Shown here: in pieces, positions 17,464-36,835 of the stretch | Layout of the letters: every line of letters begins with the position of its first letter | How positions within the stretch are numbered: the stretch's first letter is position 1 | Origin: Methylobacterium sp. SyP6R | GTDB taxonomy: Bacteria > Pseudomonadota > Alphaproteobacteria > Rhizobiales > Beijerinckiaceae | DNA: 64,000 nucleotides | Reading direction: 5' to 3' | Assembly: GCF_019216885.1 (NCBI RefSeq) | Contig: NZ_JAAQRC020000001.1 | Span: 2,294,001-2,358,000, forward strand | Translations under genes and position numbers: made by a program | The notes under the pieces: model-generated | Seen by the model: only the letters and a program-made list of their open reading frames with translations | Database searches by the model: none | Told to the model about the DNA's origin: nothing

Positions 17464-17977
17464 GGGCAAGCCTCTCCAGGACCGCGGCGAGGGGCTCCGA
17501 CCGCGCCAGCACGATATCGGCGACCGCCTCCACCGCGTCGAGGGGGACGATCGGCCGACCGGCTTCCGGGAAGGGATGGTCGCTCGCCACCGCGACGATG
17601 CGGGGATCATCCGGATGCAGCGGCGGGCGGCCGTTGGCGTGGCGGTAGACCTCGAGCTTCGGATGCGGCTCGCGCTTGAACCCCTCGATCACCGCGAGGT
17701 CGCAACGGGCGAACCGGCGCAGCAGGTCGGGCAGGCGCATCTCCTCCTCGACTTCTTGGATCTGCACGACGCGGCGACGCGACGAGACGATCACCTCGCA
17801 GGCCCCCGCCTCGCGGTGGCGGAAGGAATCCTTGCCCGGCCGGTCGACGTCGAACTCGTGGTGGGCGTGCTTGAGCGTCGCCACGCGCAGGCCCCGGGCG
17901 CGCAGGGCCGGGATCAGCCGGACGAGGAGCGTCGTCTTGCCGGCGCCGGACCAGCCGGCGAGCCCGATCACGCGCAT
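17447..17977 (-). CDS. mobB: Molybdopterin-guanine dinucleotide biosynthesis adaptor MobB
   Basis: 176 residues from the ATG at 17977. The longer open frame upstream is the shadow of the MoeA fusion gene. A Walker A (GWSGAGKTT) occupies residues 8-16, followed by ATLKHAHHEFDVDRPGKDSF, the typical MobB signature, and later IEGFKREPHPKLEV. MobB is a GTP-binding accessory to MobA in making the bis-MGD form of the cofactor. The start lies inside the end of the preceding moeA-PBP gene and the end overlaps moeA, so translation is coupled. Confidence 0.93.
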   Translation of the reverse strand: MRVIGLAGWSGAGKTTLLVRLIPALRARGLRVATLKHAHHEFDVDRPGKDSFRHREAGACEVIVSSRRRVVQIQEVEEEMRLPDLLRRFARCDLAVIEGFKREPHPKLEVYRHANGRPPLHPDDPRIVAVASDHPFPEAGRPIVPLDAVEAVADIVLARSEPLAAVLERLAHGAAD

Positions 17978-21633: not shown

Positions 21634-22911
21634 TCAGGCCGCGCTCGCGCCCCAGGCCGGGAACGGATCCGGCAAGGTGTGGTCCGCTCTCACCGGTCCG
21701 TGCTCCGGGCCGACGAGGCAGGCATCGAGGGCGTGCCGGATCGCCGCCTCGTCGAACCCGGTGCCGATGAAGACGAGTTCCTGGCGCCGGTCGCCCCACG
21801 CGTCGCTCCAGTGCCGCATGAGCATCTCGCGCGATTCCGGGTCGTTGGGCCACCGCGCTTGCGGCACCGCGGCCCACCAGCGGCCGAGCGGCGTCACCCG
21901 CGCGGCGGCGCCGGCGAGCGAGAATTCCCCGACCCAGTCCGGCCGGGTCGCGAACCAGAGATGGCCCTTGGCCCGGATCAGCCCCGGCCAGGTCTCCTTG
22001 GTGAAGGCGTCGAACCGTGCCGGGTGGAACGGCCGGCGCGCCCGGTAGACGAAGGAGTGGATGCCGTATTCCTCGGTTTCGGGCACATGCTCGGCGGCCC
22101 CGTAGAGTTCCTTGAACCAGAGCGGATGGGTCTGCGCCCGCTCCTCGCTGAACAGGCCGGTCTCCAGGACGGTGCCGAGCGGCACCCGGCCGAACCCGGC
22201 CTCGACGATCCGGGCATCGCCGTTGAGGCCGCGCACCACCTTGCGCACGAGGTCGCGCTGCTCCGCCGAGACGTCGCCGGCCTTGTTGATCACCACCACG
22301 TCGGCGAACTCGATCTGCTCGACGAGCAGGTCGACCAAAGTGCGGGTATCCTCCTCGCCGGCCGTCTCGCCGCGGTCGCGCAGGAAATCGTGCGAGCCGT
22401 AATCGCGCAGCAGGTTCACCGCATCGACCACCGTGACCATGGCGTCGAGGCGGGCGACGTCGGACAGGGACGCCCCGTCCTCGGCCCGGAACGAGAAGGT
22501 GCTGGCGACCGGCAGCGGCTCTGAGATGCCGGTGCTCTCGATCAACAGGGCGTCGAAGCGGCCCTCCTCGGCGAGGCGCCGCACCTCCCGCATCAGGTCG
22601 TCGCGCAGGGTGCAGCAGATGCAGCCGTTGGTCAGCTCGACCAGGCGCTCGTCGGTCCGCGACAGGCCGGCCTCACCCGCCCGGACGAGGTCGGCGTCGA
22701 TGTTCACCTCGCTCATGTCGTTCACGATGACCGCGACCCGGCGCCCCTCGCGGTTGGCGAGCACGTGGTTGAGGAGCGTCGTCTTGCCCGCCCCGAGGAA
22801 GCCGGACAGGACGGTGACGGGCAGGCGGGGATCTTGCGAGCGGGGATCTTGCGAGCGGGGATCTTGCGGGCGGGAATCTCGCGGCCGAGCGGCGGTCGAA
22901 TGGTCGAGCAT
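21634..22911 (-). CDS. COG0523 (CobW/YciC-type) metallochaperone GTPase
   Basis: 425 residues from the ATG at 22911, with GGAGGTG 8 bases upstream. It has Walker [12 protein letters not shown], the metal-binding CxCC motif in [11 protein letters not shown] (residues 97-100), ESTGISEP and NKAGD for guanine binding, and the C-terminal CobW domain. The family delivers metals, often zinc, to client proteins. A candidate Zur operator lies 20 bases upstream of the start codon, so this is probably a zinc-starvation GTPase rather than a cobalamin enzyme. The N-terminus carries a QDPRS repeat from a 15-bp tandem duplication. The partner may be the 92-residue protein downstream. Confidence 0.9.
22826..22885. 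repeat. 15-bp tandem repeat in the GTPase N-terminal coding region
   Basis: There are four 15-bp units at 22826-22840, 22841-22855, 22856-22870 and 22871-22885. The first two are identical (CGGGGATCTTGCGAG) and the last two are diverged. They encode repeated SQDPR in a disordered leader ahead of the GTPase core. Confidence 0.85.
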
Positions 22912-22945: not shown

Positions 22946-23049
22946 TCACTCGTTCTGTCAAGCCGGCGGGTGCCGTGGCGTTCGGGCGCCTTCCCGGCCG
23001 GGGATCCGGGCGCGTAGACCCGTCCCGCCCTCTCCGGACCCTCTCCCGC

Positions 23050-24324
23050 ATGTTCCTCCCGCCCCGCCTCGCCCTCGCCGCCCTCGCCTGCCTTCTCGCC
23101 GTCACCGCCCGCGCCGAGGCGCCGATGCGCGGCCATGGCGGGCCGGTGCGGGCGCTGGCCGTGACGGCGGATGGCCGCCAGGCGCTATCGGGCAGCTTCG
23201 ATTCCTCGGCGATCCTGTGGTCGATCGAGGATGGCGCGGCGCTCCGGGTGCTGCGGGCCCATGACGGGGCGGTGAACGCGGTGGCGCTCCTGCCCGATGG
23301 CGGGCTCGTCACCGGGGGCGAGGACGGGCGGATCGCCCTGTGGCGCGAGGGCGACGAACCGGAGCGGATCGTCGCCGCCCATGCCGGCCCGGTCTCCGGC
23401 CTCGCCGTGGCGCCGGACGGGCGGTGGATCGCGTCGTCGTCCTGGGACGGCACCGCCCGGATCACGCCCCTCGACGGTTCTCCCGCCCTGGTGCGGGAGG
23501 GCCACAAGGGCAACGTCAACGGCGTCGCCTTCCTGCCCGACGGGCGCCTCGTCACCGCGGGCTACGACGCCACGGTCCGGATCTGGCCGGAGACCGGAGC
23601 GCCGCTCACGGTCCAGCTCGAATCACCGGTCAGCGCGGTCGTGGCCGCCCCCGACGGCGAGATCGCGGCGGCGGGCGCCGACGGGACGCTGCGCCTGATA
23701 CGGTCCGATGGCGGCATCCGGGCGGGCGTGGAGATCGGCCCCCGGCCTCTGGTGGCCCTGGCGCTCTCGCCCGACGGGCGCCGGCTCGCCGCCGCGACGG
23801 TCGGCGGCGCGGTGGCGATCGTCGACCGGGCGGAGGCGCGGGTGCGCCTCACCCTGGTCGGGCCCGGCCTGCCGGTCTGGTCGCTGGCCTTCCGCGGTCC
23901 GGACGAGCTCGTCACCGGCGGCGGCGACCGGCTGGTGCGCCGCTGGGACCTCCGTACGGGCGAGCCGATCGGCCCGCTCGCCATGGCCCGCCCGGCGGAT
24001 CCGCTGGCGGCCTTCGCGGGCGACCGGGGCGCCGCGGTGTTTCGCGCCTGCGAGGCCTGCCACACCCTGACGCCCGACGGCGGCAACCGCGCCGGACCGA
24101 CCTTGTACGGCGTGTTCGGCCGCCGCATCGCGACGGTGCCGGACTATCCCTATTCCCCGGCCTTCCGGCGGCTCGACATCGTGTGGACGCCCGAGACCGT
24201 CGCCCGCCTGTTCGAGATCGGCCCCGCCCGCTTCACCCCCGGCACCAAGATGCCCGAGCAGACGATCGGCGCGGCGGAGGACCGGGCGGCCCTGGTGCGG
24301 TTCCTGGAGCGGGCGACGCGGTGA
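23050..24324 (+). CDS. Periplasmic WD40 beta-propeller fused to a C-terminal cytochrome c
   Basis: 424 residues with a Sec signal (about 1-22, [15 protein letters not shown]). Residues about 25-320 are seven WD40-like blades ([50 protein letters not shown] and so on). The C-terminal 95 residues form a class I cytochrome c with haem site CEACH (334-338) and a likely Met401 axial ligand (TKMPEQ). It sits between the GTPase and the formate dehydrogenase accessory genes. It could take electrons from a periplasmic dehydrogenase, or act as a c-type cytochrome scaffold. The partner is unknown. Confidence 0.88.
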
Positions 24325-24327
24325 GCC

Positions 24328-26349
24328 TCAGCCCTGCCGCGCCCGGATGTAATCCTCCGAGGTCTTCGGCCGGTTCTCCGCCGCCGCATGCGGGTCGAAG
24401 CCCTCGTCGAGGACGTGCGAGACCCGGCAGGTGTCGCACATCATCAGCGCCTTGATCCGCTCCTCGCCGGCCGGACCGGCGAACATCCAGTGGCGATCAC
24501 GCAGGCGGCCGACTACCCGCTCGACGGTGCTGCGGGTGCCGAACGCCTTGCCGCACGCGATGCAGTCGAACGGCTCCTCCTCCTTGAGGACCCGGCGCGG
24601 CGCCGCCCAGGCGGCGAAGTCGAGCTGCGGCACGAGGCCGATCGCGTCCTCCGGGCAGGTCGCGGCGCACAGGCCGCATTGCACGCAGGCGCTCTCCGCG
24701 AAGGTCAGGCGCGGGCGGTCGGGATCGTCGGCGAGCGCTCCCGTCGGGCAGGCGCCGACGCAGGCGTGGCACAGCGTGCAGGCTTCCGCCTTGAAGGCGA
24801 GGCCGCCGAAGGGCGCGCCGGCATCGAGCGGCACCCGGTCGACGGGACGCGGCGCGGCGTGGTGCAGCTCCGAGACCGCGAAGCGCAGGACGCCCCGCAC
24901 GTCGCCATCCGGCATGAAGCCCGACGGTGCGGGTGCGGGCGTGCCGCGGGCACCAGCGGCCAGGGCCTCCCCCAGCGCGTCCGGGTCGTCGGTCTCGATC
25001 AGCGAGACGACCGTGCCGCCCGCCTCCGCCCCGTAGCCGAGGGCCTGGGCCACCGCGTCGAACCGGGCGGCGTTGCGGACGAGCGCCGCGATGTCGTGCT
25101 TCGGCCTGGCCCGGCCGAGGAACCGCACGGCGCTCGCGCCGTAGGCGAAGGCCGCCGCGATCGTCTCGGGCCCGACCTGGGTCACCTCGTTGACCGGAAA
25201 CGGCAGCACGTCGGCCGGCAGCCCATCGCCGAAGCGGGCGAGCGCGTCGATCAGGGGCGCGCCATGGGCCTCGTCGTGGACCAGCAGCACCGGGGCCGTG
25301 CCGCCGGCCTTGTGGAAGGCGACGAGCAGGGTGCGCAGGCGCCGCATCAGCGCGTCGGCCGGCGGCACGGCATAGGCCGCGGCCCCGGTCGGGCAGACGG
25401 AGGCGCAGGAGCCGCAGCCGGCGCAGACATGCGGGTCGATCGCCACGTGGTCGCCGGCCGGGGCGATGGCGCCGGTCGGGCAGACGTCGAGGCAGCGGGT
25501 GCAGCCGGTGATGCGCGAGCGCGAATGGGCGCAGAGATCGGCGTGGACGTCGACGAAGCGGGTCTTGTCGAACGTACCGACGAGGTGGGAGGCCTCGAAC
25601 AGCGCCCGCTCGACCGCCGCCGCGTCGCGCGGATCGGCGCGCAGGTAGCCGCTGCGCAACTCGTGCGCCGGGAAGAGCGGCGTGCCGCCGGTGAGATCGA
25701 CGACGATGTCGCAGGTCGAGGTCGCCCCGTCCCGGGCCGGCCCGAAGGCGAGTGTCCGCCGCGAGGAGGGCAGCGGCAGGGCGGTGTCGTCGACCCGCAA
25801 CGAGAAGGCACCGAGATGGCCGGTGGCGGCCCGCACGGTGCCCTTCAGGACCGGGATCTCGCCGGAGCGCGGCGGCGCCACCTCGCCGGGCCGGGAGAGC
25901 AGCACCGTCACGTCGAGATGGTCGGAGAGGCGCGCTCCGGCCTCGATCGCGACCTCGTCGCGGCCATAGACCAATGCCACGCCCCGGCTCTCGAAGCTCA
26001 CGCTCGAAGGCGTCGGCATCGGCTCGGCGGCCGCCGCCAGCAGGGCCGCCATCTTGGGGCCCGCCCGGTGCCCGTCCGCCGACCAGCCGGCCGTCTCGCG
26101 GATATTGGCGAAGGCGACGCGGTCCTCGGCGCCCAGTTCCTCCGCCACCTCGCGGAAGAGCGGCGCCTTGAGGGTGCAGGACACGGTGACGGGAGCGCCC
26201 GAGGCCATCGCCGTCCGCACCCGTTCCAGTTCGCGGCCGCAGAGCTGGTCGCCCGTCTCCAGCCGCCCGCCGCAGGCCTTGCCGATCGCCGCCGCATCGA
26301 GGGGCATGCTGCCCTCGCAGGAACAGGCGATCACGATCCGATCCGACAC
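24328..26349 (-). CDS. Multi-cluster 4Fe-4S ferredoxin with C-terminal paired CxxC motif, FDH-associated
   Basis: About 673 residues from a GTG at 26349. A second GTG at 26352 is equally possible, and GGAGA lies just upstream. The N-terminus has IVIACSCEGSM. Two ferredoxin motifs lie at mid-protein (CTRCLDVCP, CAGCGSCASVCP) and two later (CTLCHACVGACP, CVQCGLCAATCP), giving four [4Fe-4S] sites. Near the end CIACGKAFGT and CDTCR make a paired CxxC, zinc-ribbon- or rubredoxin-like as in FdhE. The family sits next to periplasmic FDH clusters in alphaproteobacteria. It has no signal peptide, so it probably acts in cytoplasmic maturation or electron supply. The exact role is unknown. Confidence 0.85.
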   Translation of the reverse strand: MSDRIVIACSCEGSMPLDAAAIGKACGGRLETGDQLCGRELERVRTAMASGAPVTVSCTLKAPLFREVAEELGAEDRVAFANIRETAGWSADGHRAGPKMAALLAAAAEPMPTPSSVSFESRGVALVYGRDEVAIEAGARLSDHLDVTVLLSRPGEVAPPRSGEIPVLKGTVRAATGHLGAFSLRVDDTALPLPSSRRTLAFGPARDGATSTCDIVVDLTGGTPLFPAHELRSGYLRADPRDAAAVERALFEASHLVGTFDKTRFVDVHADLCAHSRSRITGCTRCLDVCPTGAIAPAGDHVAIDPHVCAGCGSCASVCPTGAAAYAVPPADALMRRLRTLLVAFHKAGGTAPVLLVHDEAHGAPLIDALARFGDGLPADVLPFPVNEVTQVGPETIAAAFAYGASAVRFLGRARPKHDIAALVRNAARFDAVAQALGYGAEAGGTVVSLIETDDPDALGEALAAGARGTPAPAPSGFMPDGDVRGVLRFAVSELHHAAPRPVDRVPLDAGAPFGGLAFKAEACTLCHACVGACPTGALADDPDRPRLTFAESACVQCGLCAATCPEDAIGLVPQLDFAAWAAPRRVLKEEEPFDCIACGKAFGTRSTVERVVGRLRDRHWMFAGPAGEERIKALMMCDTCRVSHVLDEGFDPHAAAENRPKTSEDYIRARQG

Positions 26350-26520
26350 CACAGGATTCTCCGACCGGGCACGCGCCCCCAGGCTCCGGGAACCGGGGCC
26401 GATGGGAACCGGACGCTTAGGCCCTGGGGCGTCATGCCCCTTGTTCACCGCTCCAGCGCTATATACGAGCCGTTCAAAAGAACGACCCGACACGTGCGCG
26501 CAGGCAACGCCTTCTCCATC
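26350..26520. promoter_or_regulatory. Divergent promoter region of the FDH accessory genes
   Basis: This 170-base gap separates the minus-strand ferredoxin and the plus-strand ligase-like gene. The right half is AT-richer, with TTGTTC at 26441 and CTATATACG around 26459-26467, a plausible -10 for the rightward operon, though the spacing (13-15) is short. No dyad stands out. Confidence 0.35.
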
Positions 26521-27186
26521 ATGAGTTTCGTCGATTCCCCCGGCCTGATGCTGCCCCCTTCCTTCCGGCCGCTGCGCCTGCCGGCGGCGGCCGGGACGGC
26601 GCATGACCGGGCCTGCGCTCTCGCGGCGGGCGACGACGGGGCCGCCGGCACCCTCGTGCTCGGCGCCCGGCCCGGCACCGTGGCGGTGGCGGTGGTGCTG
26701 GCGCCCGAGGAGCCGCTGGCGGCCGCCCGACGGGTCGGGCTCGTCGGCCTCGTCGCGCTCGCCGAGGCGGTCGGCAGCCACGCCCCGCCCGACAAGCCGG
26801 TGACGCTGGACGCGGCCGGCACCCTGTTCTTCGACCGCGCCCGCCTCGGCGGCGGGCGCCTGGCCTGGTCCCGGGATTGTCCCGACGACGCGGTACCGGA
26901 CTGGCTGGTCTTCTCCTGGATGCTGATCGCCTCGAAGCGCGAGGCGGGCGATCCCGGCCACACGCCCGATTCGACCTCGCTGGAGGAGGAGGGGTTCGAG
27001 GCCGGTCCCGACGCGCTGGTCGAGAGCTTCGCCCGACACCTGCTGCGCGGGCTCTCGCTCTGGGCCGAGGACGGGCCCGACGCCGCGCTCGCGCGGGCGC
27101 GGGACCATCTCGACGCCGATCCCGCGACGCTCCGCCTCGACGGGAGCGGCTGGTTCGATCCCGCCCGGGGGGGCCCGCGCCTGTGA
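26521..27186 (+). CDS. Biotin/lipoate-protein-ligase-family protein of the FDH cluster
   Basis: 221 residues from the ATG at 26521. The long open frame upstream is a shadow of the ferredoxin gene. The core GTLVLGARPGTVAVAVVLAP and ARLGGGRLAWS fits the BPL/LplA fold. The ligase GRGRxG loop and the catalytic lysine (KVGG-type motif) are not visible, so ordinary biotin or lipoate ligation is doubtful. The family recurs beside FDH accessory genes. Its stop overlaps the next start (GTGA), so the two are translationally coupled. It is a cytoplasmic FDH-maturation candidate of unknown chemistry. Confidence 0.78.
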   Translation: MSFVDSPGLMLPPSFRPLRLPAAAGTAHDRACALAAGDDGAAGTLVLGARPGTVAVAVVLAPEEPLAAARRVGLVGLVALAEAVGSHAPPDKPVTLDAAGTLFFDRARLGGGRLAWSRDCPDDAVPDWLVFSWMLIASKREAGDPGHTPDSTSLEEEGFEAGPDALVESFARHLLRGLSLWAEDGPDAALARARDHLDADPATLRLDGSGWFDPARGGPRL

Positions 27187-27755
27187 GCTTCAAGCTTCCC
27201 CGCACCCTGCGGCTCGACCCCTCCGACACCCTGGTCTTTCCCCGTGCCGCGCCGCCCGGCGAATGGGCGGTGACCGGCAGCTTCCTGTTCCTCGACGGGG
27301 ATCCCATCGCCCTCGCCGGCAAGGAGCGGGCGGCGTTCCGGGCCGGCTTCGTCGGCATCGATTCCTTCGGCTTCTCGACCCTGGTGGTGGTGAGCGCAGC
27401 GAGCGCGGCCGAGCGCGACGCCGCGACCGAGGCGCTGGCGACCCAGTTCCAGGCCCGCCTCGGCGCGCCGGACCGGGCGAGCGCGCTCGCGGCGGCCCGG
27501 GAGGAGATCGCGGTGGCCGAATCGCTCTGCGGTCCGCCGGTCGGCACGGTGCTGGCGCTGCACCGGACGCTGGAGGAGGGCGAGATCCGCGAGCGCTTCC
27601 GGGCTTTGCGCCCGCGGGAGGGGGCCGTGCCGGGCTCCGACCGGCGCCACGCCTACGCTCGCGCCTTCGACTTCTACGAGACCGACGACGAGCCGGAGGA
27701 GCGGGTCGATCTGGCGGGATTGCTCGCCGGCAGGCCGGACGGCGATCCGCGATGA
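27183..27755 (+). CDS. DUF6505 family protein
   Basis: 190 residues from the GTG at 27183, which overlaps the previous stop as GTGA. It opens with LPRTLRLDPSDTLVFPRAA, then SFLFLDGDPIALAGKERAAF and ending FDFYETDDEPEERVD. The family name is from memory of this gene order (ligase-like, DUF6505, DUF6352, DUF3305, DUF3306, TorD, fdh). There is no signal, no membrane segment and no metal motif. It is probably cytoplasmic and part of FDH maturation by context. Confidence 0.78.
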   Translation: MSFKLPRTLRLDPSDTLVFPRAAPPGEWAVTGSFLFLDGDPIALAGKERAAFRAGFVGIDSFGFSTLVVVSAASAAERDAATEALATQFQARLGAPDRASALAAAREEIAVAESLCGPPVGTVLALHRTLEEGEIRERFRALRPREGAVPGSDRRHAYARAFDFYETDDEPEERVDLAGLLAGRPDGDPR

Positions 27756-27796
27756 TGGCCGGTTCGGCGCGGGTGAGTGGACGTCATCCCTTCCAC

Positions 27797-27919
27797 GACC
27801 TCATCCTGAGGTGTTAGTCCATCGAAGATGGACTGACCTCGAAGGAGGGCTCCAGAACTCGCTGAGATCCCTGGAGCCCTCCTTCGAGGCTCCCGTTGGT
27901 CGCACCTCAGGATGAGGTC
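27797..27919. repeat. Palindromic intergenic repeat, family B (copy 1)
   Basis: The ends are inverted (GACCTCATCCTGAGGTG and CACCTCAGGATGAGGTC), with an inner second inverted pair (GAAGGAGGGCTCCA against TGGAGCCCTCCTTC). It is 123 bp long. The second copy is at 38130-38250 in the same orientation. It occupies most of the 233-base gap between the DUF6505 and DUF6352 genes and could form a long hairpin in the transcript. Confidence 0.9.
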
Positions 27920-27988
27920 ACGGATGGGATACCCGGTCTCCTAGGTCATCTTTAGAACCCCTCCTCGAACCGGCTCCGAATCCCCACC

Positions 27989-28996
27989 ATGCCTGAATTC
28001 TGGGTCTCGAGCGGCCATCACCTCACCCGGCGCGACGCGGGCGGCGGACTCGTCGTCACCGACGAGTTGCTGCTGGCCTATCTCGCGCGCCCCGAACTGG
28101 TGCCGCCGGACGAGGCCTGCGACGCCGAGCGGGCGCTTCACGCCGCGCTCCTCGGCCATCCCCGCCGCCCGGTCGCGCCGGCCGAGATCGCGGCGATCAC
28201 CGACGCGGATGCGCGGGAAAACTGGGAGGTCATCCTCGCCTTCCGCGACCGCCTGCTCGCCGCCCGCTCCGTCGAGGCGGCCTATCTCGATCTCGTGCGG
28301 CGGGGCGTCTCGGGCACGCCGCCGCTCTTCCTCAACCAGCTCGTCCACCTCATCTTGCGCAACGCGCTCGATGCTTGCGACGATCCCTATACGTTGCGCG
28401 CCGCCGAGCTGTTCTTCCGTCCGCAGCGGGCCTCCGTCACCGACGGCGCGCTGCTGCTCGCCGATGCCGAGCTGATCGACGAGGCGGAGGGCGCGCGCGG
28501 GCAATCCCCCCTCGTGGCGATGCTGGGGCGCGAGCCGGTCTCCGAGCTCGACGTGCTGACGGCCGAGAATGCCTGGACCTACTGGAGCCGGTCCGACGCC
28601 TTCAGCATGGCGCTCAACCTCGGCTCCGATCCGAAGAGCCGCGAGGGGCTGGCCCGGGCGATCGAAGCCTTCGTCCGCCACCTGCTGGCGGTCGAGGTGG
28701 CGGTGGCACCGATCCCGGCGATCGAGGACAAGGACTGGCGCTGGTTCGTCGGGCTCGACCAGGAGGGCACGCGGATCGGCAACGCGCTGTGGCGCGGCGA
28801 GCCCGTCGATGCCGCCGCCGGTGAGCGGGTGATCGCCCTGTTCCGTCTGACGATCCTCGATCCGACCCGGGCCGATCCGCGGGTCGGCGACCGGCCGGTC
28901 TACCTGCTGCTCGCCATGGCGCCGGACCGGACCGTGACGCTGAAGCCGCAGAACCTGATCGCCGGCCTGCCGGTTGTCGTGACGGGAGAGGCCTGA
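27989..28996 (+). CDS. DUF6352 family protein
   Basis: 335 residues, opening MPEFWVSSGHHLTRRDAGGG, which is how I recall this family beginning. It is a soluble alpha-rich protein with no cysteine cluster or nucleotide motif. The centre has FLNQLVHLILRNALDACDDP and a later YWSRSDAFSMALNL stretch. The stop (TGATG) overlaps the DUF3305 start by one base. It is conserved in position within FDH accessory operons and its function is not established. Confidence 0.8.
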   Translation: MPEFWVSSGHHLTRRDAGGGLVVTDELLLAYLARPELVPPDEACDAERALHAALLGHPRRPVAPAEIAAITDADARENWEVILAFRDRLLAARSVEAAYLDLVRRGVSGTPPLFLNQLVHLILRNALDACDDPYTLRAAELFFRPQRASVTDGALLLADAELIDEAEGARGQSPLVAMLGREPVSELDVLTAENAWTYWSRSDAFSMALNLGSDPKSREGLARAIEAFVRHLLAVEVAVAPIPAIEDKDWRWFVGLDQEGTRIGNALWRGEPVDAAAGERVIALFRLTILDPTRADPRVGDRPVYLLLAMAPDRTVTLKPQNLIAGLPVVVTGEA

Positions 28997-29505
28997 TGAG
29001 CACCCAGCTGATCGCCGTCGGGGTCGTCGTCGCCAGGCGCAAGCTGAAGGGGCCGTGGGCGAGCCATGCCTGGTTGCCCGTGGCGGTGCTGCCGGGACAG
29101 CCCGGCACCGCGCCCTGGACCCGCCTCTCGGCCTCGGAGGACGAGGAGACGTTCTATGCCGGTGCCTACGAGGTCGAGCTGCACCCGGCCGAGACGGCGC
29201 ATTACGGCGACAACCTCGCGGCGGCGCAGCCCTCGCTCTGGGTGGCCCTGCGCGAGACCGGCCCCGACACCTACGCCGTCGCCACCGTGACGGCCGATCC
29301 CTACGAGGGCGAATCCCTGGCGGAGGGCATCGGCGAGATCGTCGAGGCGGTGCCGATGCCGCCCGAGATCCAGGCCGAGGTCGGCGCCTTCTACCGGGCG
29401 TTCCACGTCGAGCGGGTCTTCCACAAGCGCAAGCGCGACCGGGCCGACCCGGAGGCGCTCGCCCGCCAGGGAGGCGGCGCGCGGCGCCGGCCGGAGGAGC
29501 CGTGA
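28996..29505 (+). CDS. DUF3305 domain protein
   Basis: 169 residues. The core starts VGVVVARRKLKGPWASHAWL, the usual DUF3305 opening, followed by FYAGAYEVELHPAETAHY and VTADPYEGESL. It ends in a basic tail (HKRKRDRADPE, RRRPEEP). It overlaps the genes on both sides (1 base before, 4 bases after). It is a cytoplasmic protein always found with DUF3306 in FDH clusters, and its biochemical role is unknown. Confidence 0.85.
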   Translation: MSTQLIAVGVVVARRKLKGPWASHAWLPVAVLPGQPGTAPWTRLSASEDEETFYAGAYEVELHPAETAHYGDNLAAAQPSLWVALRETGPDTYAVATVTADPYEGESLAEGIGEIVEAVPMPPEIQAEVGAFYRAFHVERVFHKRKRDRADPEALARQGGGARRRPEEP

Positions 29506-30491
29506 GCGACGGCTTCCTCGCCCGCTGGTCGCGGCGCAAGCGCGACGAGGCGCGCCGGCCCGCGGATATTCCCACCGTCGCGCCGGAAACCGCAATGCCG
29601 GCCGGGGCGCCGGCTGAGGACGAAGCCTCCCTCAGCCCCGAAGAACTGGCGCAACTCCCATCGCTCGACGCGCTCACCGCCGCGACCGACCTGACCCCCT
29701 TCCTGCGCACCGGCGTGCCGCGGGTTCTGCGCAACGCGGCGTTGCGCCGGATGTGGTCGATCGACCCGACGATCCGCGACTTCGTCAGCGAGGCGCGGGA
29801 ATACGCCTATGACTGGAACACCCCCGGCGGCGTGCCGGGCACCGGCGGCGCGATCTCGGCCGAGGACGTGCGGGCGATGGTCGAGAAGGTGTTCGGGGGG
29901 GTGGAAGAGACGCCTCCCTGCGCCGATTCCGGCGAAGCGGGCATTTCCGAAAATGGCGCGCCTCTCCCCTCTCCCCGCGGGCGGGGAGAGGGCTTCACCC
30001 CCCTTGCCGGGGGTGAAGCGAGCAGAGAACCGCAGGTTCGCCGCGAGGGTGAGGGGGTTTCGACGAGTGAGACAGTTCCGGTAATTCCCCCTCCCCCCAC
30101 AGAACTCGGGCTTGCCCGAGTTCTGCATCCGAGCATCCAAGTCGGGCATGCCCGACTTGGATTGGGGGAGGGTGGCCTACGGAGTAGGCCGGGAGAGGGG
30201 CAGCGCGACGCTGATCCAGAGGGCGCCCTTCATCATGGGCGCGACTTTTCCGGAAGCGGCGTCCCCTCTCCCGGCTCGCTCCGCTCGCCACCCTCCCCCG
30301 CAGAGGGGGGAGGGGAAAACCTGCGTCTTTTCCCTTTCCCGGACAGCCCTGTGCCCACGGGGGTTGGGATTGCGCACCAAACTCCACAGTTCTCGTCCGT
30401 GGCAGAGAGTGGCCGCAACCACCCCGAACCACCCCCCGAGCCCCCCTCCCCACCCCGCCTGCGACGCCATGGCGGGGCCCTGCCGATTTGA
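29502..30491 (+). CDS. DUF3306 domain protein, enlarged by in-frame repeat insertion
   Basis: 329 residues from the GTG at 29502 (GTGA overlap). Residues 1-135 are a normal DUF3306 core (FLARWSRRKRDEARRP, LPSLDALTAATDLTPFLR, VPRVLRNAALRRMW). The region after about residue 150 is Pro/Gly/Arg-rich and is encoded by palindromic repeat DNA at about 29960-30320, including a family A element shared with 9590-9765. The last residues, LRRHGGALPI, look like the normal family C-terminus, so the insertions stayed in frame. The extra length is probably disordered. It may tolerate the insert or be impaired. Confidence 0.8.
   Translation: MSDGFLARWSRRKRDEARRPADIPTVAPETAMPAGAPAEDEASLSPEELAQLPSLDALTAATDLTPFLRTGVPRVLRNAALRRMWSIDPTIRDFVSEAREYAYDWNTPGGVPGTGGAISAEDVRAMVEKVFGGVEETPPCADSGEAGISENGAPLPSPRGRGEGFTPLAGGEASREPQVRREGEGVSTSETVPVIPPPPTELGLARVLHPSIQVGHARLGLGEGGLRSRPGEGQRDADPEGALHHGRDFSGSGVPSPGSLRSPPSPAEGGGENLRLFPFPDSPVPTGVGIAHQTPQFSSVAESGRNHPEPPPEPPSPPRLRRHGGALPI
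29961..30163. repeat. Composite palindromes inside the DUF3306 gene
   Basis: Three palindromic blocks follow each other: CCCTCTCCCCGCGGG with its complement from about 29966, GAACTCGGG with CCCGAGTTC at 30102-30123, and CCAAGTCGGG with CCCGACTTGG at 30137-30160. All are read through as codons. They directly abut the family A element. Confidence 0.75.
30164..30315. repeat. Long palindromic repeat, family A (copy 2), within the DUF3306 coding sequence
   Basis: It starts GGGGGAGGGTGGCC and ends CCACCCTCCCCCGCAGAGGG. Positions 30187-30228 are a perfect 42-base match to the complement of 9679-9720. Here the element lies wholly inside an open reading frame and adds about 50 codons. Confidence 0.85.
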
Positions 30492-30508
30492 AGCGTTAGA
30501 AAGTCGAA

Positions 30509-30536
30509 TTGCGCTCGATCGAATCCCCGCTATGGT
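30509..30536 (+). promoter_or_regulatory. Possible promoter for the TorD-FDH structural operon
   Basis: TTGCGC at 30509-30514 and TATGGT at 30531-30536 are separated by 16 bases, in the 144-base gap between DUF3306 and TorD. A small hairpin (GCAAC/GTTGC, 30540-30554) follows in the leader. The elements are weak matches to a sigma-70 promoter and are supported mainly by position. Confidence 0.35.
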
Positions 30537-30635
30537 GCCGGCAACGGGACGTTGCATCCTCCAAACGAAGGAGAGGCTCGAGGGCCGGCAGGCCCCGATG
30601 CAGGTCCCGATCGTGAAGTCGCGTTGCACGAGGTG

Positions 30636-31232
30636 ATGGTGAACCAGGGCCCCGATCCGGTCGACGAGATCGACGCTCTGCGCGCGCAGGAATACGATCT
30701 CCTGGCGGCGGTCCTCGGTCGCGCGCCGGGCCCGGATCTGCTGGCGGCCCTGCAGGGCCTCGACGGCGACGCGACGCCCCTCGGCCAGGCCCACGCCGCC
30801 CTCGGCCGCGCGGCCCGCGAGGCCGCGCCCCGCGAGATCGGCCGCGACTACTTCGCCCTGTTCGTCGGCGTCGGGCGCGGACTGATCATGCCCTACGCCT
30901 CCTATTACCTCACCGGCTTCCTCAACGAGCGGCCGCTCGCCCGGGTCCGGCAGGATTTCGCGGAGCTTGGGCTGGAGCGCGATCCGACGTCGAGCGAGCC
31001 GGAGGACCATGCCGCCACCCTGCTCGAGGTGATGGCCAATCTCGCAGCAAGGCGCCTGCCGGCGGAGCCCGGCGCCGATCATCGCTTCTTCGAGCGGCAT
31101 CTGAAGCCGTGGATCGGGCGTTTCTTCACCGACGTTGCGGCGCAAGCCAGCACCCCGTTCTACCGTGCGGTCGGCGAACTCGGCGAGGTATTCACGACGA
31201 TCGAGGCCGAGGCCTTCGCGATGGAAGCGTGA
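30636..31232 (+). CDS. TorD/DmsD-family chaperone for formate dehydrogenase
   Basis: 198 residues from the ATG at 30636. An in-frame ATG at 30552 exists, but the added 28 residues look unlike the family. All-helical TorD features are visible: RAQEYDLLAAVLGRAPGPDLL, REIGRDYFALFVGVGRGLIMPYAS (the YxxLFxGxGxG-type motif), and EPEDHAATLLEVMANL (family ExxDH). These chaperones bind Tat signal peptides and help load Moco before export. The client here is surely the Tat-bearing alpha subunit encoded just downstream. Confidence 0.88.
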   Translation: MVNQGPDPVDEIDALRAQEYDLLAAVLGRAPGPDLLAALQGLDGDATPLGQAHAALGRAAREAAPREIGRDYFALFVGVGRGLIMPYASYYLTGFLNERPLARVRQDFAELGLERDPTSSEPEDHAATLLEVMANLAARRLPAEPGADHRFFERHLKPWIGRFFTDVAAQASTPFYRAVGELGEVFTTIEAEAFAMEA

Positions 31233-31284
31233 CGTGAGCCAAGACGACGTGAACCGGGACGCGGATACGAAGAGGAGAGCCGCG

Positions 31285-31524
31285 ATGCGGCAAGAGAACG
31301 AGACCCGCAAGGACGGCGAGACCAGCCTCGGGCGGCGGCAATTCTTCCGCGCGCTCGGCGGAGGCACCGCCGCGGCGGCGGCCGCCATCGCCTCCGTGCC
31401 GCTCACGCCCACCGAGGCCCAGGCCTACGACCCCGGCAATGCCGAGACCCGGTCGCGCTACCGCGAGACCGACCACGTCAAGGCCTTCTACCGCACCAAC
31501 GGCTACGAGACGCTCAAGAAGTGA
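31285..31524 (+). CDS. Small Tat-signal protein of the formate dehydrogenase region (TIGR02811 type)
   Basis: 79 residues from the ATG at 31285, with GAGGAGAG upstream. Residues 17-45 hold a twin-arginine motif and hydrophobic core (GRRQFFRALGGG then a long Ala run). The mature part is only about 35 residues and ends VKAFYRTNGYETLKK. Such mini-proteins precede the FDH alpha gene in many bacteria and may be an accessory subunit or an export partner. It overlaps or abuts the start of the alpha gene. Confidence 0.85.
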   Translation: MRQENETRKDGETSLGRRQFFRALGGGTAAAAAAIASVPLTPTEAQAYDPGNAETRSRYRETDHVKAFYRTNGYETLKK

Positions 31525-31532
31525 GACCGGCG

Positions 31533-34475
31533 ATGCTGACCAAGCGCAGGAGCGGCGTTGCGGGCCGCGGCAGCCACCAGGCCCTCGCCGCGGGCCTGAC
31601 CGCCCCCACCCTCGACCGCCGCGGCTTCCTGCGGAAATCGGGACTGGCCGCCGGCGGCCTCGCGGCCCTCGGCTCGTTGCGGCTCGGCGCGGTGCGTCAG
31701 GCTGAGGCCGCCGGCTCGTCCGCCGATCCGGCGCAGGCCGTGATCCGCAAGAACGTCTGCACCCACTGCTCGGTCGGCTGCACCGTGACCGCGGAAGTCG
31801 TCAACGGCGTCTGGGTCGGCCAGGAGCCGTCCTGGGGCAGCCCGATCAACCGCGGGGCGCATTGCGCCAAGGGCGCGGCGATCCGCGAGCTGGTCCACAG
31901 CGACCGCCGCCTGCGCTACCCGATGAAGATCGCGAATGGCGAGTGGCAGCGCATCTCCTGGGACCAAGCGATCACCGAGATCACCGACAAGCTCCAGGCG
32001 ATCCGCAACAAGAACGGTGCGGATTCGGTCTACTGGCTCGGCTCGGCCAAGTTTACCAACGAGGCCTCGTATCTGTTCCGCAAGTTCGCGGCCTATTGGG
32101 GCACCAACAACGTCGATCACCAAGCGCGCATCTGCCACTCGACCACGGTGGCGGGTGTGGCCAACACCTGGGGCTACGGCGCCCAGACGAATTCGTACAA
32201 CGACATCCGCAACGCCAAGACGATGATCATCCTCGGCGGCAACCCCGCCGAGGCGCACCCGATCTCCATGCAGCACGTGCTGTCGGGCAAGGAGATCAAC
32301 CGCGCCAACATGATCGTCATCGATCCGCGCTTCACCCGCACCGCCGCGCACGCGACCGAGTACGTCCGGATCCGCTCCGGCACCGACATCCCGGTGATCT
32401 GGGGCATCCTCTGGCACATCTTCCAGAACGGCTGGGAGGACAAGGCCTTCATCGAGCAGCGCGTCTACGCGATGGACGACGTGCGCAAGGAAGTCGCCAA
32501 GTGGACGCCCGACGAGGTCGAGCGGGTGTCGGGCGTGCCGGGCGAGCAATTGAAGCGCGTCGCCGAGCTCTTCGCCAAGGAGAAGCCCGCGACCCTGATC
32601 TGGTGCATGGGCGCGACCCAGCACACGGTCGGCACCGCCAACGTGCGGGCGCTCTGCATCCTGTGCCTGGCCACCGGCAATGTCGGCAAGCCGGGGACCG
32701 GCGCCAACATCTTCCGCGGCCACACCAACGTCCAGGGCGCCACTGACCTCGGCCTCGATGTGACGACGCTGCCGCTCTATTACGGCCTCGTCGAGGGCGG
32801 CTGGAAGCACTGGGCCCGGGTCTGGGAGGTCGAGTACGACTGGCTGCAATCGCGCTTCGACGAAGTCCCCGCCAGCGCCGGCCGCAAGGCCCGCTCGCGC
32901 AAGGAGAACATGGAGACCCCCGGCCTCACCTCGACCCGGTGGTTCGACGCGGTGAGCCTGCCGGCCGAGCAGGTCGACCAGCGCACGCCCTTGAAGGCCA
33001 TGATGGTGTTCGGCCATGGCGGCAACACCGTGACCCGGATGCCCGAGGCGGTGAAGGGCATGGCGGAACTGGAACTCCTCGTCGTCGCCGACCCGCACCC
33101 GACCACCTTCGCGGCGATGGATGCGCGGCGCGACAACACCTACCTCCTGCCGATCTGCACCTCGCTGGAGATGGACGGGTCGCGCACGGCCTCGAACCGC
33201 TCGCTGCAATGGGGCGAGCAGATCGTGAAGCCGGCCTTCGAATCGAAGACCGACTACGAGGTCATCTACCGGATGGCGAGCAAGCTCGGTTTCGCCGACA
33301 GCCTGTTCAAGAACGTCAAGGTGGTGGACGGCATCCCGGTCGCCGAGGACCTGCTGCGGGAGATCAACCGCGGCGGCTGGTCGACGGGCTATTGCGGCCA
33401 GAGCCCCGAGCGCCTGAAGGCGCACATGAAGAATCAGCACAAGTTCGACCTCGTCACGTTGCGCGCGCCGAAGGACGATCCTGAGGTCGGCGGCGACTAT
33501 TACGGCCTGCCCTGGCCGTGCTGGGGCAAGCCCGAGATCAGGCATCCCGGCACCCACATCCTCTACAACACGTCGCTGCACGTGAAGGAGGGTGGCGGCA
33601 CCTTCCGGGCCCGGTTCGGCACCGAGCGCAACGGCGCGACGCTGCTGGCGGAAGATTCCTTCTCCCAGGGCTCGGACCTCACCGACGGCTACCCGGAATT
33701 CACCTTCGGGGTGTTCCGCAAGCTCGGCTGGGACAAGGACCTGACGGCGGACGAACTCGCCACCATCCAGCGGATCGGCGGCAACAACCCGGACGCGGTC
33801 AGCTGGGCCACCGACCTGTCGGGCGGCATCCAGCGGGTCTGCCTCGATCACGGCGTGATCCCGTTCGGCAACGGCAAGGCCCGGGCCAATGCCTGGAACC
33901 TGCCCGATCCGGTGCCGGTCCACCGCGAGCCGGTCTACTCGCCGCGCCCCGACCTCGTCGCCAAATACCCGACCCGGCCCGACGAGCGGCAGTTCCGGAT
34001 GCCGAATGTCGGCTTCTCGGTGCAGAAGGCGGCGGTCGATCGCGGGATCGCCAAGCAGTTCCCGATCATCCTGTCCTCGGGCCGCCTCGTCGAATACGAG
34101 GGCGGCGGCGAGGAGACCCGCTCGAATCCCTGGCTTGCCGAGCTGCAGCAGGACATGTTCGTCGAGGTCAACACCCAAGACGCCGCCGAGCGCGGCATCA
34201 AGGACGGCCAGTTCGTCTGGGTCTACGGCCCGGAGAATTCCTCCAAGGCCAAGGTGAAGGCACTCGTGACGGATCGCGTTGCCAAGGGCGTGGCCTGGAT
34301 GCCGTTCCACTTCTCGGGCTGGTACCAGGGCAAGGACATGCGCGACTTCTACCCGAAGGGCGCCGACCCCGTGGTGCTGGGCGAGAGCGTCAACACCGTC
34401 ACCACCTACGGCTTCGATCCCGTCACGGGCATGCAGGAGACCAAGGTGACCCTCTGTCAGATCAGCGCGGCGTAA
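31533..34475 (+). CDS. fdhA: Formate dehydrogenase catalytic alpha subunit, periplasmic Mo/W-bisMGD enzyme
   Basis: About 980 residues. I chose the ATG at 31533. A GTG at 31521 overlapping the previous stop is an alternative. A Tat signal (RRGFLRKSG, 29-37) directs export. One [4Fe-4S] site is formed by Cys76, Cys79, Cys83 and Cys111 (CTHCSVGC, then HCAKG). The metal ligand is Cys201 in ARICHSTTVAG, where E. coli FdnG has selenocysteine, followed by the catalytic His. The molybdopterin-binding domains and the C-terminal MopB_CT domain are complete. It oxidises formate to CO2 in the periplasm and passes electrons to the beta subunit. It matches the Methylobacterium FDH3 type. Confidence 0.95.
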   Translation: MLTKRRSGVAGRGSHQALAAGLTAPTLDRRGFLRKSGLAAGGLAALGSLRLGAVRQAEAAGSSADPAQAVIRKNVCTHCSVGCTVTAEVVNGVWVGQEPSWGSPINRGAHCAKGAAIRELVHSDRRLRYPMKIANGEWQRISWDQAITEITDKLQAIRNKNGADSVYWLGSAKFTNEASYLFRKFAAYWGTNNVDHQARICHSTTVAGVANTWGYGAQTNSYNDIRNAKTMIILGGNPAEAHPISMQHVLSGKEINRANMIVIDPRFTRTAAHATEYVRIRSGTDIPVIWGILWHIFQNGWEDKAFIEQRVYAMDDVRKEVAKWTPDEVERVSGVPGEQLKRVAELFAKEKPATLIWCMGATQHTVGTANVRALCILCLATGNVGKPGTGANIFRGHTNVQGATDLGLDVTTLPLYYGLVEGGWKHWARVWEVEYDWLQSRFDEVPASAGRKARSRKENMETPGLTSTRWFDAVSLPAEQVDQRTPLKAMMVFGHGGNTVTRMPEAVKGMAELELLVVADPHPTTFAAMDARRDNTYLLPICTSLEMDGSRTASNRSLQWGEQIVKPAFESKTDYEVIYRMASKLGFADSLFKNVKVVDGIPVAEDLLREINRGGWSTGYCGQSPERLKAHMKNQHKFDLVTLRAPKDDPEVGGDYYGLPWPCWGKPEIRHPGTHILYNTSLHVKEGGGTFRARFGTERNGATLLAEDSFSQGSDLTDGYPEFTFGVFRKLGWDKDLTADELATIQRIGGNNPDAVSWATDLSGGIQRVCLDHGVIPFGNGKARANAWNLPDPVPVHREPVYSPRPDLVAKYPTRPDERQFRMPNVGFSVQKAAVDRGIAKQFPIILSSGRLVEYEGGGEETRSNPWLAELQQDMFVEVNTQDAAERGIKDGQFVWVYGPENSSKAKVKALVTDRVAKGVAWMPFHFSGWYQGKDMRDFYPKGADPVVLGESVNTVTTYGFDPVTGMQETKVTLCQISAA

Positions 34476-34487
34476 GGGGGGATCCTC

Positions 34488-35084
34488 ATGGCCAGAATGA
34501 AGTTCCTCTGCGACGCCGACCGCTGCATCGAGTGCAACGCCTGCGTCACCGCCTGCAAGAACGAGCACGAGGTGCCGTGGGGCATCAACCGTCGCCGGGT
34601 CATCACCCTCAACGACGGCAAGCCCGGCGAGCGCTCGGTGTCGATGGCCTGCATGCACTGCACCGACGCGCCCTGCGCGGCGGTGTGCCCGGTGAACTGC
34701 TTCTACACCACGGCGGATGCCGTGGTGCTGCACTCCAAGGACCTGTGCATCGGCTGCGGCTACTGCTTCTACGCCTGCCCCTTCGGGGCGCCGCAATATC
34801 CCCGCGTCGGGAATTTCGGCTCCCGCGGCAAGATGGACAAGTGCACCTATTGCTCGGGCGGACCGGAACCCGACCTCTCGGTCGCCGAATACGAGAAATA
34901 CGGCTCGAACCGCCTTGCCGAGGGCAAGCTGCCGCTCTGCGCCGAGATGTGCTCGACCAAGTCTCTGCTGGCCGGCGACGGCGAGATGATCGCCCAGATC
35001 TACAAGGAGCGGGTGATCAAGCGCGGCTACGGCTCGGGCGCCTGGGGCTGGAAGACGGCCTACCGCGAGACGATCGCGATCTGA
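34488..35084 (+). CDS. fdhB: Formate dehydrogenase iron-sulfur beta subunit
   Basis: 198 residues. Four ferredoxin-type clusters are indicated by CIECNACVTACK, CMHCTDAPCAAVCP, CIGCGYCFYACP and a split set (CTYC plus CAEMC). It relays electrons from the alpha subunit to the membrane cytochrome. It has no signal of its own and is expected to be exported in complex with the Tat-bearing alpha subunit. It starts 12 bases after fdhA with GGGGGATCC ahead. It lacks the C-terminal membrane anchor found in E. coli FdnH. Confidence 0.94.
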   Translation: MARMKFLCDADRCIECNACVTACKNEHEVPWGINRRRVITLNDGKPGERSVSMACMHCTDAPCAAVCPVNCFYTTADAVVLHSKDLCIGCGYCFYACPFGAPQYPRVGNFGSRGKMDKCTYCSGGPEPDLSVAEYEKYGSNRLAEGKLPLCAEMCSTKSLLAGDGEMIAQIYKERVIKRGYGSGAWGWKTAYRETIAI

Positions 35085-35094
35085 GGGACTTCCG

Positions 35095-36096
35095 ATGCGC
35101 AGGCTGACCTCCCTCCTCCTCCTGGCCGCGACCCTGGCGCTGACGGCCCCGGCCGTCGCCCAGGTGCGCGCGCCCGACGGCGCCCCCAACCCGACCGCCT
35201 CCTCGGTCAACGAGGAGATGCTGTTCAAGCAGGACCCGAAGATCCACGGCCGGATCTCGATCCCGAACCAGACCGCCGCCAACCTGATCCAGCCTCAAGG
35301 CCGGGAATGGCGGGCGTTCCGCGAATCCTGGATGCCGTGGATCGGGGCGCTCGTCGTGCTCGGCATGATCGCCGCGCTCGGCCTGTTCTACTTCACCCGC
35401 GGCCGCATCCGCCTCGAGCACAGCGAGGAGTCGGGACGCAAGATCCTGCGCTTCAACAGCTTCGAGCGCTTCTCGCACTGGATGACGGCGAGCTGCTTCA
35501 TCGTTCTGTCGCTGTCGGGACTGAACTACATCTTCGGTAAGCGCCTGCTGATGCCGCTGATCGGGCCCGAAGCCTTCGCGACCCTGGCCCAGTACGGCAA
35601 GTACGCCCACATCTATCTCGCCTGGCCGTTCATGCTCGGCGTGCTGTTCATGCTGGTGCTCTGGGTGCGTGACAACATTCCGGGCAGGATCGACTGGATC
35701 TGGCTCAAGCAGGGCGGCGGGCTGCTGGGCGACGCGCATCCGAGCGCCGGGCGCTTCAATGCCGGCCAGAAGATGGTGTTCTGGATGGTGGTCGGCTTCG
35801 GCTTCGCCATGGGCGCCACCGGCCTGATGATGATCTTCCCGTTCGCATTCACCGACATCAACGGGATGCAGGTGATGCAGGTGATCCACTCGCTGATCGG
35901 CGTGGTGTTCATCGCCGGCATCCTGGCCCACATCTATATCGGGTCGCTCGGCATGGAGGGCGCCTACGACGCGATGGGCAGCGGCGAGGTGGATCTGGCC
36001 TGGGCCAAGGTCCACCACGATCTCTGGGTGAAGGAACAGCAGGCCAAGACCGCGAGCGGGCCGCAGCTCGGCCGCTCCCAGGTCCCGGCCGAGTAA
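35095..36096 (+). CDS. fdhC: Formate dehydrogenase cytochrome b gamma subunit
   Basis: 333 residues. There is an N-terminal Sec signal (LLLLAATLALTAPAVAQ), then a periplasmic segment and four to five membrane helices, including SHWMTASCFIVLSLSGLNYI, HIYLAWPFMLGVLFMLVLWV, and VIHSLIGVVFIAGILAHIYI. The His residues in these helices (HWM, KYAHIY, VIHS, LAHIY) are the likely haem b ligands of the FdnI-like family. It anchors the enzyme and hands electrons to quinone. It ends in a soluble tail. Confidence 0.93.
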   Translation: MRRLTSLLLLAATLALTAPAVAQVRAPDGAPNPTASSVNEEMLFKQDPKIHGRISIPNQTAANLIQPQGREWRAFRESWMPWIGALVVLGMIAALGLFYFTRGRIRLEHSEESGRKILRFNSFERFSHWMTASCFIVLSLSGLNYIFGKRLLMPLIGPEAFATLAQYGKYAHIYLAWPFMLGVLFMLVLWVRDNIPGRIDWIWLKQGGGLLGDAHPSAGRFNAGQKMVFWMVVGFGFAMGATGLMMIFPFAFTDINGMQVMQVIHSLIGVVFIAGILAHIYIGSLGMEGAYDAMGSGEVDLAWAKVHHDLWVKEQQAKTASGPQLGRSQVPAE

Positions 36097-36110
36097 GGGC
36101 GGAGAGAGCG

Positions 36111-36323
36111 ATGAAAGCCTTCCTGGTCGCCGTCGCGGCGGCCCTGGTGCTCGCCACCGCGGCGAGCTTCCTGCTCGGCGAGAACCAGCGTTTCGCCTAC
36201 CAGGCCTTCGCGACTTCCGGTGCCCGGGTCTCGGATCCGGGCACCAACCTCGTCGGCCCGCGCTGGACCGGCGACATCAAGGAGTCGGCTGCGGCTCGTC
36301 ATACGATGGAGCCGGGCTCGTGA
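36111..36323 (+). CDS. Small secreted protein at the end of the FDH operon
   Basis: 70 residues with an N-terminal hydrophobic segment (FLVAVAAALVLATAASFLLG) that is either a signal peptide or a single anchor. GCGGAGAGAGCG precedes the ATG at 36111. The mature part (VSDPGTNLVGPRWTGDIKES) has no recognisable motif. It overlaps the next gene (GTGATG) and lies 14 bases after fdhC. By position it may be a small accessory subunit of the membrane complex. Confidence 0.7.
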   Translation: MKAFLVAVAAALVLATAASFLLGENQRFAYQAFATSGARVSDPGTNLVGPRWTGDIKESAAARHTMEPGS

Positions 36324-36835
36324 TGCGCAACGTCGTCATCCTCGCCGCCCTCGCCGCCTCCGTGAGCACGGCCCAGGCCGCCGGCCCGCCGGCCAACCTG
36401 TGCCAGGAGCTCGTCGCCTTCGTGCACCCGAAGGCGCCGGACGCCACCCCGAGCGCCCCGCAGCCCGCGACCGCCGCCGTCCAGGCGCCCGATCGCGGCG
36501 CCGCGCAGCAGCCGGGCGCGGGCGCCGGCGAGGTGCAGCAGAAATCGGGCCTGAGCGGTCCGGTGGCCCAGACCGGGCCAGGCGCCTCCGGTCCGCAAGG
36601 ACAGGCCCAGGCCCAGGCCCAGGCCCCGTCCCAGGCCGCTCCCGCCCCGGCCGGGGCACCGGCGCAGAAGAAGCCGACCCTGGAGCAGATCGCGCAGGTC
36701 GATGCGGCGGCGGGCGCCAACGACATCCAGGCCTGCCGCGCCGCTGCGCAGGCGATCCGGCGCGCCGGGGTGGTGATGCCCGCGCCGCTTCTCGCACTCT
36801 CGGCGCTCGATCCGAAGTTTTTTGCGGCGCAGTAG
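36320..36835 (+). CDS. Secreted Ala/Pro/Gln-rich protein, last gene of the FDH operon
   Basis: 171 residues, starting at GTG 36320 or ATG 36323. A signal peptide ends near residue 20 (ASVSTAQA). Cysteines lie in PPANLCQELV and DIQACRAAA, and may pair across a disordered middle that includes GQAQAQAQAQAP. The last 60 residues form a helical domain (AAGANDIQACRAAAQAIRRA). Not a family I recognise. Its position suggests a periplasmic partner of the formate dehydrogenase. Confidence 0.65.
   Translation: MMRNVVILAALAASVSTAQAAGPPANLCQELVAFVHPKAPDATPSAPQPATAAVQAPDRGAAQQPGAGAGEVQQKSGLSGPVAQTGPGASGPQGQAQAQAQAPSQAAPAPAGAPAQKKPTLEQIAQVDAAAGANDIQACRAAAQAIRRAGVVMPAPLLALSALDPKFFAAQ

Follow-up and report, generated by a model that had tools for sequence, protein, structure and literature searches.

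A close point of comparison for the genes discussed here is FdhE of Escherichia coli, an accessory to a periplasmic formate dehydrogenase (FDH) exported by the twin-arginine translocation (Tat) pathway, which binds metal through paired CX2C motifs and works beside FdhD; the available part of a review calls the association between fdhE and periplasmic FDH operons systematic and describes the role of the FdhE iron as yet to be determined (PMC10609526). E. coli also possesses HydN and YsaA, ferredoxin-like proteins that raise the activity of FDH-H and interact with it (PMC6004506, accessible part), but these are HycB-like and serve a cytoplasmic FDH. A further precedent is the TorD/DmsD-FDH operon type of Bay et al. 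(2015), in which DUF3305, DUF3306 and a fer4 gene occur, treated as putative membrane proteins with no function assigned (PMC4464133, in the portion available). Here we analyse a 64-kb window (the entire stretch under study) from the 7.5-Mb genome of Methylobacterium sp. SyP6R, where these and other orphan families surround the genes of an FDH. Judging from sequence and genome comparison, they probably constitute a dedicated, FdhE-independent set that would act in the cytoplasm in the maturation and redox checking of FDH3, a cysteine (Cys)-type, Tat-exported, cytochrome b-linked enzyme. The genes concerned are the following:

24328..26349, minus strand: iron-sulfur (FeS) protein, 673 aa; core
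26521..27186, plus strand: PF16917 ligase-like protein (biotin/lipoate-ligase-like), alternative start at 26548; optional layer
27183..27755, plus strand: DUF6505 (PF20115); optional layer
27786..27930, no strand: palindromic repeat in the DUF6505-DUF6352 gap, a junction that is a 4-bp overlap in the relative G035
27989..28996, plus strand: DUF6352 (PF19879); optional layer
28996..29505, plus strand: DUF3305 (PF11749); core
29502..30491, plus strand: DUF3306 (PF11748), 329 aa; core
30636..31232, plus strand: TorD-family chaperone
31285..31524, plus strand: small Tat-signal protein, "formate dehydrogenase region TAT target" (TIGR02811)
31533..34475, plus strand: FdhA, Cys-type with Tat motif; the enzyme that the module would serve
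34488..35084, plus strand: FdhB, the FDH3 beta subunit (NF038355)
35095..36096, plus strand: FdhC, cytochrome b gamma subunit (TIGR01583, PF01292)

A previous interpretation of the locus, made from the letters alone (the sequence-only reading), had named these families around the FDH, and strong profile scores bear it out for the FeS protein, PF16917, DUF6505, DUF6352, DUF3305, DUF3306, TorD, TIGR02811 and FdhABC alike. The enzyme is of the FDH3 type because its beta subunit scores 338 bits with NF038355 (FDH3_beta), whose cut-off is 240. FdhA carries the Tat motif DRRGFL and the motif ARICHS, the cysteine of which we take to be the metal ligand. ARICHS recurs in 21/21 FdhA proteins of genomes with the module and a Tat pattern in 20/21, the longest open reading frame (ORF) of the remaining FdhA (G083), whose start is uncertain, lacking it. 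Given the Tat motif of FdhA and the cytochrome b gamma subunit, mature FDH3 should be periplasmic.

The principal evidence for dedication comes from 180 Pseudomonadota genomes, each of which was searched for every family, with FDH3_beta accepted above its model cut-off, the FeS protein at E<=1e-20 and the ligase-like protein above 160 bits. DUF3305, DUF3306, the FeS protein and FDH3_beta were each found in 21 genomes, and the four sets are identical: the three helper families are present in 21/21 FDH3 genomes and absent from all 159 that lack FDH3_beta above cut-off. For two identical sets of 21 genomes the hypergeometric p is ~7e-28, a value that ignores relatedness; the 21 module genomes span 14 genera and 9 families. 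DUF6505 (15/180) and DUF6352 (9/180) occur exclusively within these 21, and the ligase-like protein (14/180) is in each case accompanied by DUF6505. TorD and the small Tat protein, sought only in the fetched module regions of the same genomes, are present in 21/21 and 20/21, respectively, and none of the four DUF families was found in any of 14 control genomes. Linkage alone does not account for this co-occurrence, because two genomes keep the families unlinked: in one (G016), DUF6505 and DUF6352 lie 0.3-0.4 Mb and the FeS gene ~31 kb from DUF3305, and in another (G019) DUF6352 is 2.8 Mb from DUF3305 along the contig.

The FeS protein, DUF3305 and DUF3306 are the core of the module, with TorD in all 21 genomes, and DUF6505, the ligase-like protein and DUF6352 are optional layers. 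The uniform set of six that the sequence-only reading had assumed is therefore replaced by a core with additions found in 15, 14 and 9 of the 21 genomes. Its idea of a dedicated maturation module for a Cys-type, Tat-exported FDH stands, with the core in exactly those genomes that hold FDH3 and ARICHS in every FdhA; it had also allowed that the families might turn out to be as frequent without FDH, which is not what the genomes hold. A second view of the module is offered by 80 named loci picked by FeS similarity (the best 80 of at least 590 confirmed, nearly all from Alphaproteobacteria by title), 53 of which are longer than 21 kb and were scored with our own profiles and thresholds. In these long loci, FdhA, DUF3305, DUF3306 and TorD are present in 51 each, the small Tat protein in 50, DUF6352 in 49, the ligase-like protein in 48 and DUF6505 in 46.

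We then turn to the two established accessory factors. FdhD is present in 70/180 genomes, including 21/21 module genomes. Since FdhD, the known sulfurtransferase, is there in all 21, a sulfurating role for the module, one of the functions that had been proposed for it, is unsupported. FdhE (PF04216), on the other hand, is found in 21/180 genomes and in 0/21 module genomes, and neither the window's own genome nor the FeS protein yields a PF04216 match. Over all 180 genomes the exclusion between FdhE and module has p = 0.06, unstratified; among the 70 genomes with FdhD, 20 have FdhE, 21 the module and 29 neither (p = 1.7e-4). Five families contain both states, always in different genomes, and permutation within those five families gives p = 0.007. 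Methylobacterium itself exemplifies the pattern, with FdhE in one genome (G167), the module in three (G000, G028, G151) and neither in another (G143). A second sample of 177 Alphaproteobacteria contains DUF3305 in 27 genomes and FdhE in 5 (4 above cut-off) with an overlap of 0, a comparison of little power (p = 0.43). Within these samples, FDH3 genomes are an exception to the fdhE association. One published statement weighs against independence from FdhE: species with TorD-fdh operons are said to have fdhE in trans (PMC4464133, accessible part).

What might the FeS protein contribute? Its layout comprises a shortened HdrA (1-346), an unassigned domain (~350-480) and a HycF-like end (506-649), with motifs for four [4Fe-4S] clusters, an N-terminal Cys4 and a C-terminal CX2C-x38-CX2C; two [4Fe-4S] motifs followed by the CX2C ... 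CX2C pair are invariant in 21/21 FeS proteins. The HycF-like end is matched by PRK12387 at 518-647 (E 8.7e-15, 55 bits, below the cut-off of 204) and by structure as well. The overall HdrA fold is recognisable, with an N-terminal domain, a Rossmann half and a ferredoxin at the C-terminus, although whole-chain TM-scores are low (0.19-0.26). Compared with HdrA of methanogens (7bkb, 8rvy, 5odc), the protein is ~300 residues shorter, and instead of a full-length flavin domain 130 of its residues align to HdrA chain 143-588. The flavin motif GxGxxG is lost: the window has G129RDEVA, and 0 rows of the 21-sequence alignment retain it (L154 has GxGxxA). Unlike HycF of formate hydrogenlyase (7z0s/7z0t), the FeS protein is fused to an HdrA-like half and accompanies a Tat-exported FDH; relative to FdhE, it has an extra cluster chain and the HdrA part. 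HydN and YsaA are not known to contain HdrA or Cys-quartet parts. The FeS protein is a putative electron carrier, apparently assembled from pieces of known formate and methane enzymes. It is 93% identical to the FeS protein of Methylobacterium tarhaniae. The FeS gene of G019 (L151; 13853-16129, minus strand) encodes an extra ferredoxin-like Cys stretch near residues 190-210 in window numbering.

There are at least two other ways to read such a protein. It might, together with a carrier of the ApbC/Mrp type, insert or repair [4Fe-4S] clusters in FdhA and FdhB instead of transferring electrons. An ApbC-type NTPase does lie between the FeS and ligase-like genes in 7/21 genomes (333 bits with PF10609; 317 bits with NF008669, short of its cut-off of 348), and ApbC-like genes are found in 8/53 long loci. 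However, the 64-kb window contains no ApbC match, nor do 45/53 long loci, and the motifs of the FeS protein are ferredoxin clusters set in an HdrA/HycF electron-relay architecture, so that we consider a cluster-delivery function unlikely. Alternatively, the FeS protein might be no maturation factor at all and instead pass formate electrons between FDH3 and a cytoplasmic pool, in either direction, as a physiological partner. Such a partnership has parallels in the complex of HdrA with FDH in a methanogen (7bkb) and in the effect of HydN and YsaA on FDH-H, with which they interact (PMC6004506, accessible part). The Tat motif and the cytochrome b gamma subunit, by contrast, point to a mature FDH3 in the periplasm, hydropathy, used here without a signal-peptide predictor, reveals no membrane-like segment in the FeS protein, and its flavin motif is degenerate; we regard a standing electron exchange with the mature enzyme as distinctly improbable.

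The hydropathy values extend to the other helpers, which the sequence-only reading had described as lacking signal peptides. The highest 19-residue average is 0.65-1.63 for the FeS protein, the ligase-like protein, DUF6505, DUF6352, DUF3305 and DUF3306, compared with 2.23 for FdhC, and reaches up to 1.80 in relatives of these six, which fits six soluble proteins as far as hydropathy can tell without a signal-peptide predictor.

DUF3305 and MobA may be connected. DUF3305 matches positions 220-369, and MobA positions 10-198, of NF011058 ("MobA, DUF3305 domain-containing"), both below the full-length cut-off, and no MobA-DUF3305 fusion occurs among the 80 named loci (best 80 of at least 590). The predicted model of DUF3305 is confident (pLDDT 91.9), and structure searches with DUF3305 found no solved relative. 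In DUF3306 the core is conserved and the tail varies. The window protein is 329 aa long because of an in-frame insertion: a palindrome-rich insert at ~29960-30320, very roughly 120 codons, sits between the core and the conserved C-terminus (RRHGGALP) and is missing from 20/20 aligned relatives, an alignment that does not include the nearest Methylobacterium species.

The ligase-like protein has the biotin/lipoate ligase family fold by profile (PF16917, E 2.3e-49), which upholds one half of its earlier description. Enzymes of this family rely on a catalytic lysine, and here the description fails: none of the 14 module proteins has the lysine, which all 10 ligases used for comparison retain (the one in G016 and those of 9/15 fetched loci with weak matches), and the GRGRxGR nucleotide loop is missing in 14/14. 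From its sequence, the protein is a predicted pseudo-ligase.

How might these parts work together? In the scheme we favour, MoeA, MobB and MobA would make bis-molybdopterin guanine dinucleotide (bisMGD) carrying tungsten (W) or molybdenum (Mo), and FdhD would sulfurate the cofactor. TorD, with DUF3305 and DUF3306, would hold apo-FdhA and receive the cofactor, DUF3305 being placed next to MobA. The FeS protein would then dock on pre-export FdhA via its HycF-like end, the Cys quartet of HycF type being known to face FDH in formate hydrogenlyase (PMC9474812), and its cluster chain would exchange electrons with the metal site and the clusters of FdhA. It may thereby reduce or test these centres before release to Tat, the step occupied in E. 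coli by the iron-binding FdhE. The pseudo-ligase, DUF6505 and DUF6352 may form an optional sub-complex.

A more specific version can be imagined, which we offer tentatively and would not expect to hold in full. Here the module would be an independently evolved second solution to the FdhE step, in which a flavin-less HdrA/HycF hybrid provides a detachable "test circuit". Docked on not-yet-exported FdhA in the manner of HycF on FdhF, the hybrid would verify, prior to translocation by Tat, that electrons pass through the inserted cofactor. DUF3305 and DUF3306 would take bisMGD from MobA, and the dead ligase fold would provide a binding platform with DUF6505 and DUF6352. FDH3 genomes carry a possible FdhE replacement set, usually in one island, and hence a genetic system for probing the FdhE step. 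The scheme also gives the orphan families DUF3305, DUF3306, DUF6505, DUF6352 and the pseudo-ligase a testable role, and yields a candidate parts list for obtaining active exported FDHs in other hosts.

The system had been put forward as the best candidate for an undescribed one, which is only partly so. The link of DUF3305, DUF3306 and fer4 to TorD/DmsD-FDH operons has been known since 2015, and what the accessible part of that paper does not cover is the FeS architecture, the pseudo-ligase, DUF6505 and DUF6352 (PMC4464133). A literature search largely confined to papers outside subscription found no published FDH3 co-occurrence test, FdhE exclusion, FeS architecture or pseudo-ligase.

Gene order in the window is less regular than the 1-4 base overlaps first attributed to the whole set. 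Such overlaps exist at three junctions (ligase-like/DUF6505, 4 bp; DUF6352/DUF3305, 1 bp; DUF3305/DUF3306, 4 bp), but 233 bp separate DUF6505 from DUF6352, and the FeS gene, on the opposite strand, diverges from the ligase-like gene across a 171-bp gap and overlaps none of the others. In the relative G035 all four junctions are 4-bp overlaps by longest-ORF boundaries. The overlaps suggest translational coupling; production in fixed ratio, which had been deduced from them, does not follow.

Nor does the neighbourhood end where it had been drawn, at 24328..36835, a span that is too narrow. The following genes lie to its left:

16210-17610, minus strand: MoeA
17447-18508, minus strand: MobB
17968-19953, minus strand: MoeA with C-terminal PBP_like domain (PF12727)
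19950-21134, minus strand: MoeA-like, divergent
21634-22911, flanked by the MoeA genes and the cytochrome gene: CobW-family GTPase (PF02492 + PF07683)
22975..24324, plus strand: WD40 beta-propeller fused to a cytochrome c, with what looks by eye like a signal peptide

The WD40-cytochrome c (22975-24324) and the MobB and MoeA genes (16210-21134) belong to the module neighbourhood. The cytochrome is encoded in 11 of the 21 fetched module regions and in 36/53 long loci, lies <=7 bp from FdhC in four relatives (longest-ORF boundaries), and is a possible periplasmic electron partner of FDH3.

MobB and the three MoeA-family genes resemble moeA1, mobB, moeA3 and moeA5 of Methylorubrum extorquens in family and order. 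There, a MoeA1-MobB-MobA-FdhD branch makes and delivers W-bisMGD for MeFDH1, and MoeA1, MobB and FdhD are essential for this tungsten enzyme (PMC13197769, accessible part); neither FDH3 nor FdhE is mentioned in the text of that paper. The module shares with this branch nearby MoeA and MobB genes and the constant presence of FdhD. Its client differs, MeFDH1 being cytoplasmic. A third alternative is that the module is a tungsten-specific kit that selects or protects W-bisMGD for FDH3, with the FdhE pattern as a by-product. MoeA and MobB lie ~6-8 kb from the FeS gene, and their M. extorquens homologues are the W branch just described; Tup-like transporter genes are present in fetched regions of 9/21 genomes, TupA-like genes in 8/21 (the TupA model gives 199 bits, E 1e-58, where its cut-off is 400), and Tup-like genes adjoin the module on Sinorhizobium meliloti plasmid pB. 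Yet most loci are without linked Tup or MobB (TupA-like 7/53, MobB 16/53 long loci), and the window has no Tup match. We consider a tungsten kit very unlikely. The remaining cofactor genes in the long loci are MoeA (9), FdhD (8) and MobA (8).

The annotation of pB, a conjugative plasmid, contains the entire island in one stretch: MoeA-type genes, an ABC transporter (the one matched by Tup profiles), FeS, ligase-like, DUF6505, DUF6352, DUF3305, DUF3306, TorD, FdhA, fdh3B, FdhC, MobA and FdhD. The DUF3305 gene is on 88 plasmid records, this one included. Elsewhere the module seems to be split, in a group of loci comprising L252, L253 and L255. In L252 and in L253, the latter from Azospirillum, the FeS gene adjoins MobA-FdhD with no DUF3305 within 10 kb, and a 20-kb stretch of an Azospirillum brasilense plasmid has the ligase-like protein, DUF3305, DUF3306, TorD and FdhABC with no FeS gene. 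The shorter locus L240 displays FeS alone.

Two minor observations concern the flanks. The window's CobW GTPase has a close relative in the vicinity of the module in G159, and in G050 a cobW gene is also found nearby. On the 3' side of FdhC, at 36111-36835, are two small genes whose products begin with a hydrophobic stretch and match nothing in Pfam; among the 20-kb regions compared, relatives of this pair are confined to G028 and G151, both of the same genus.

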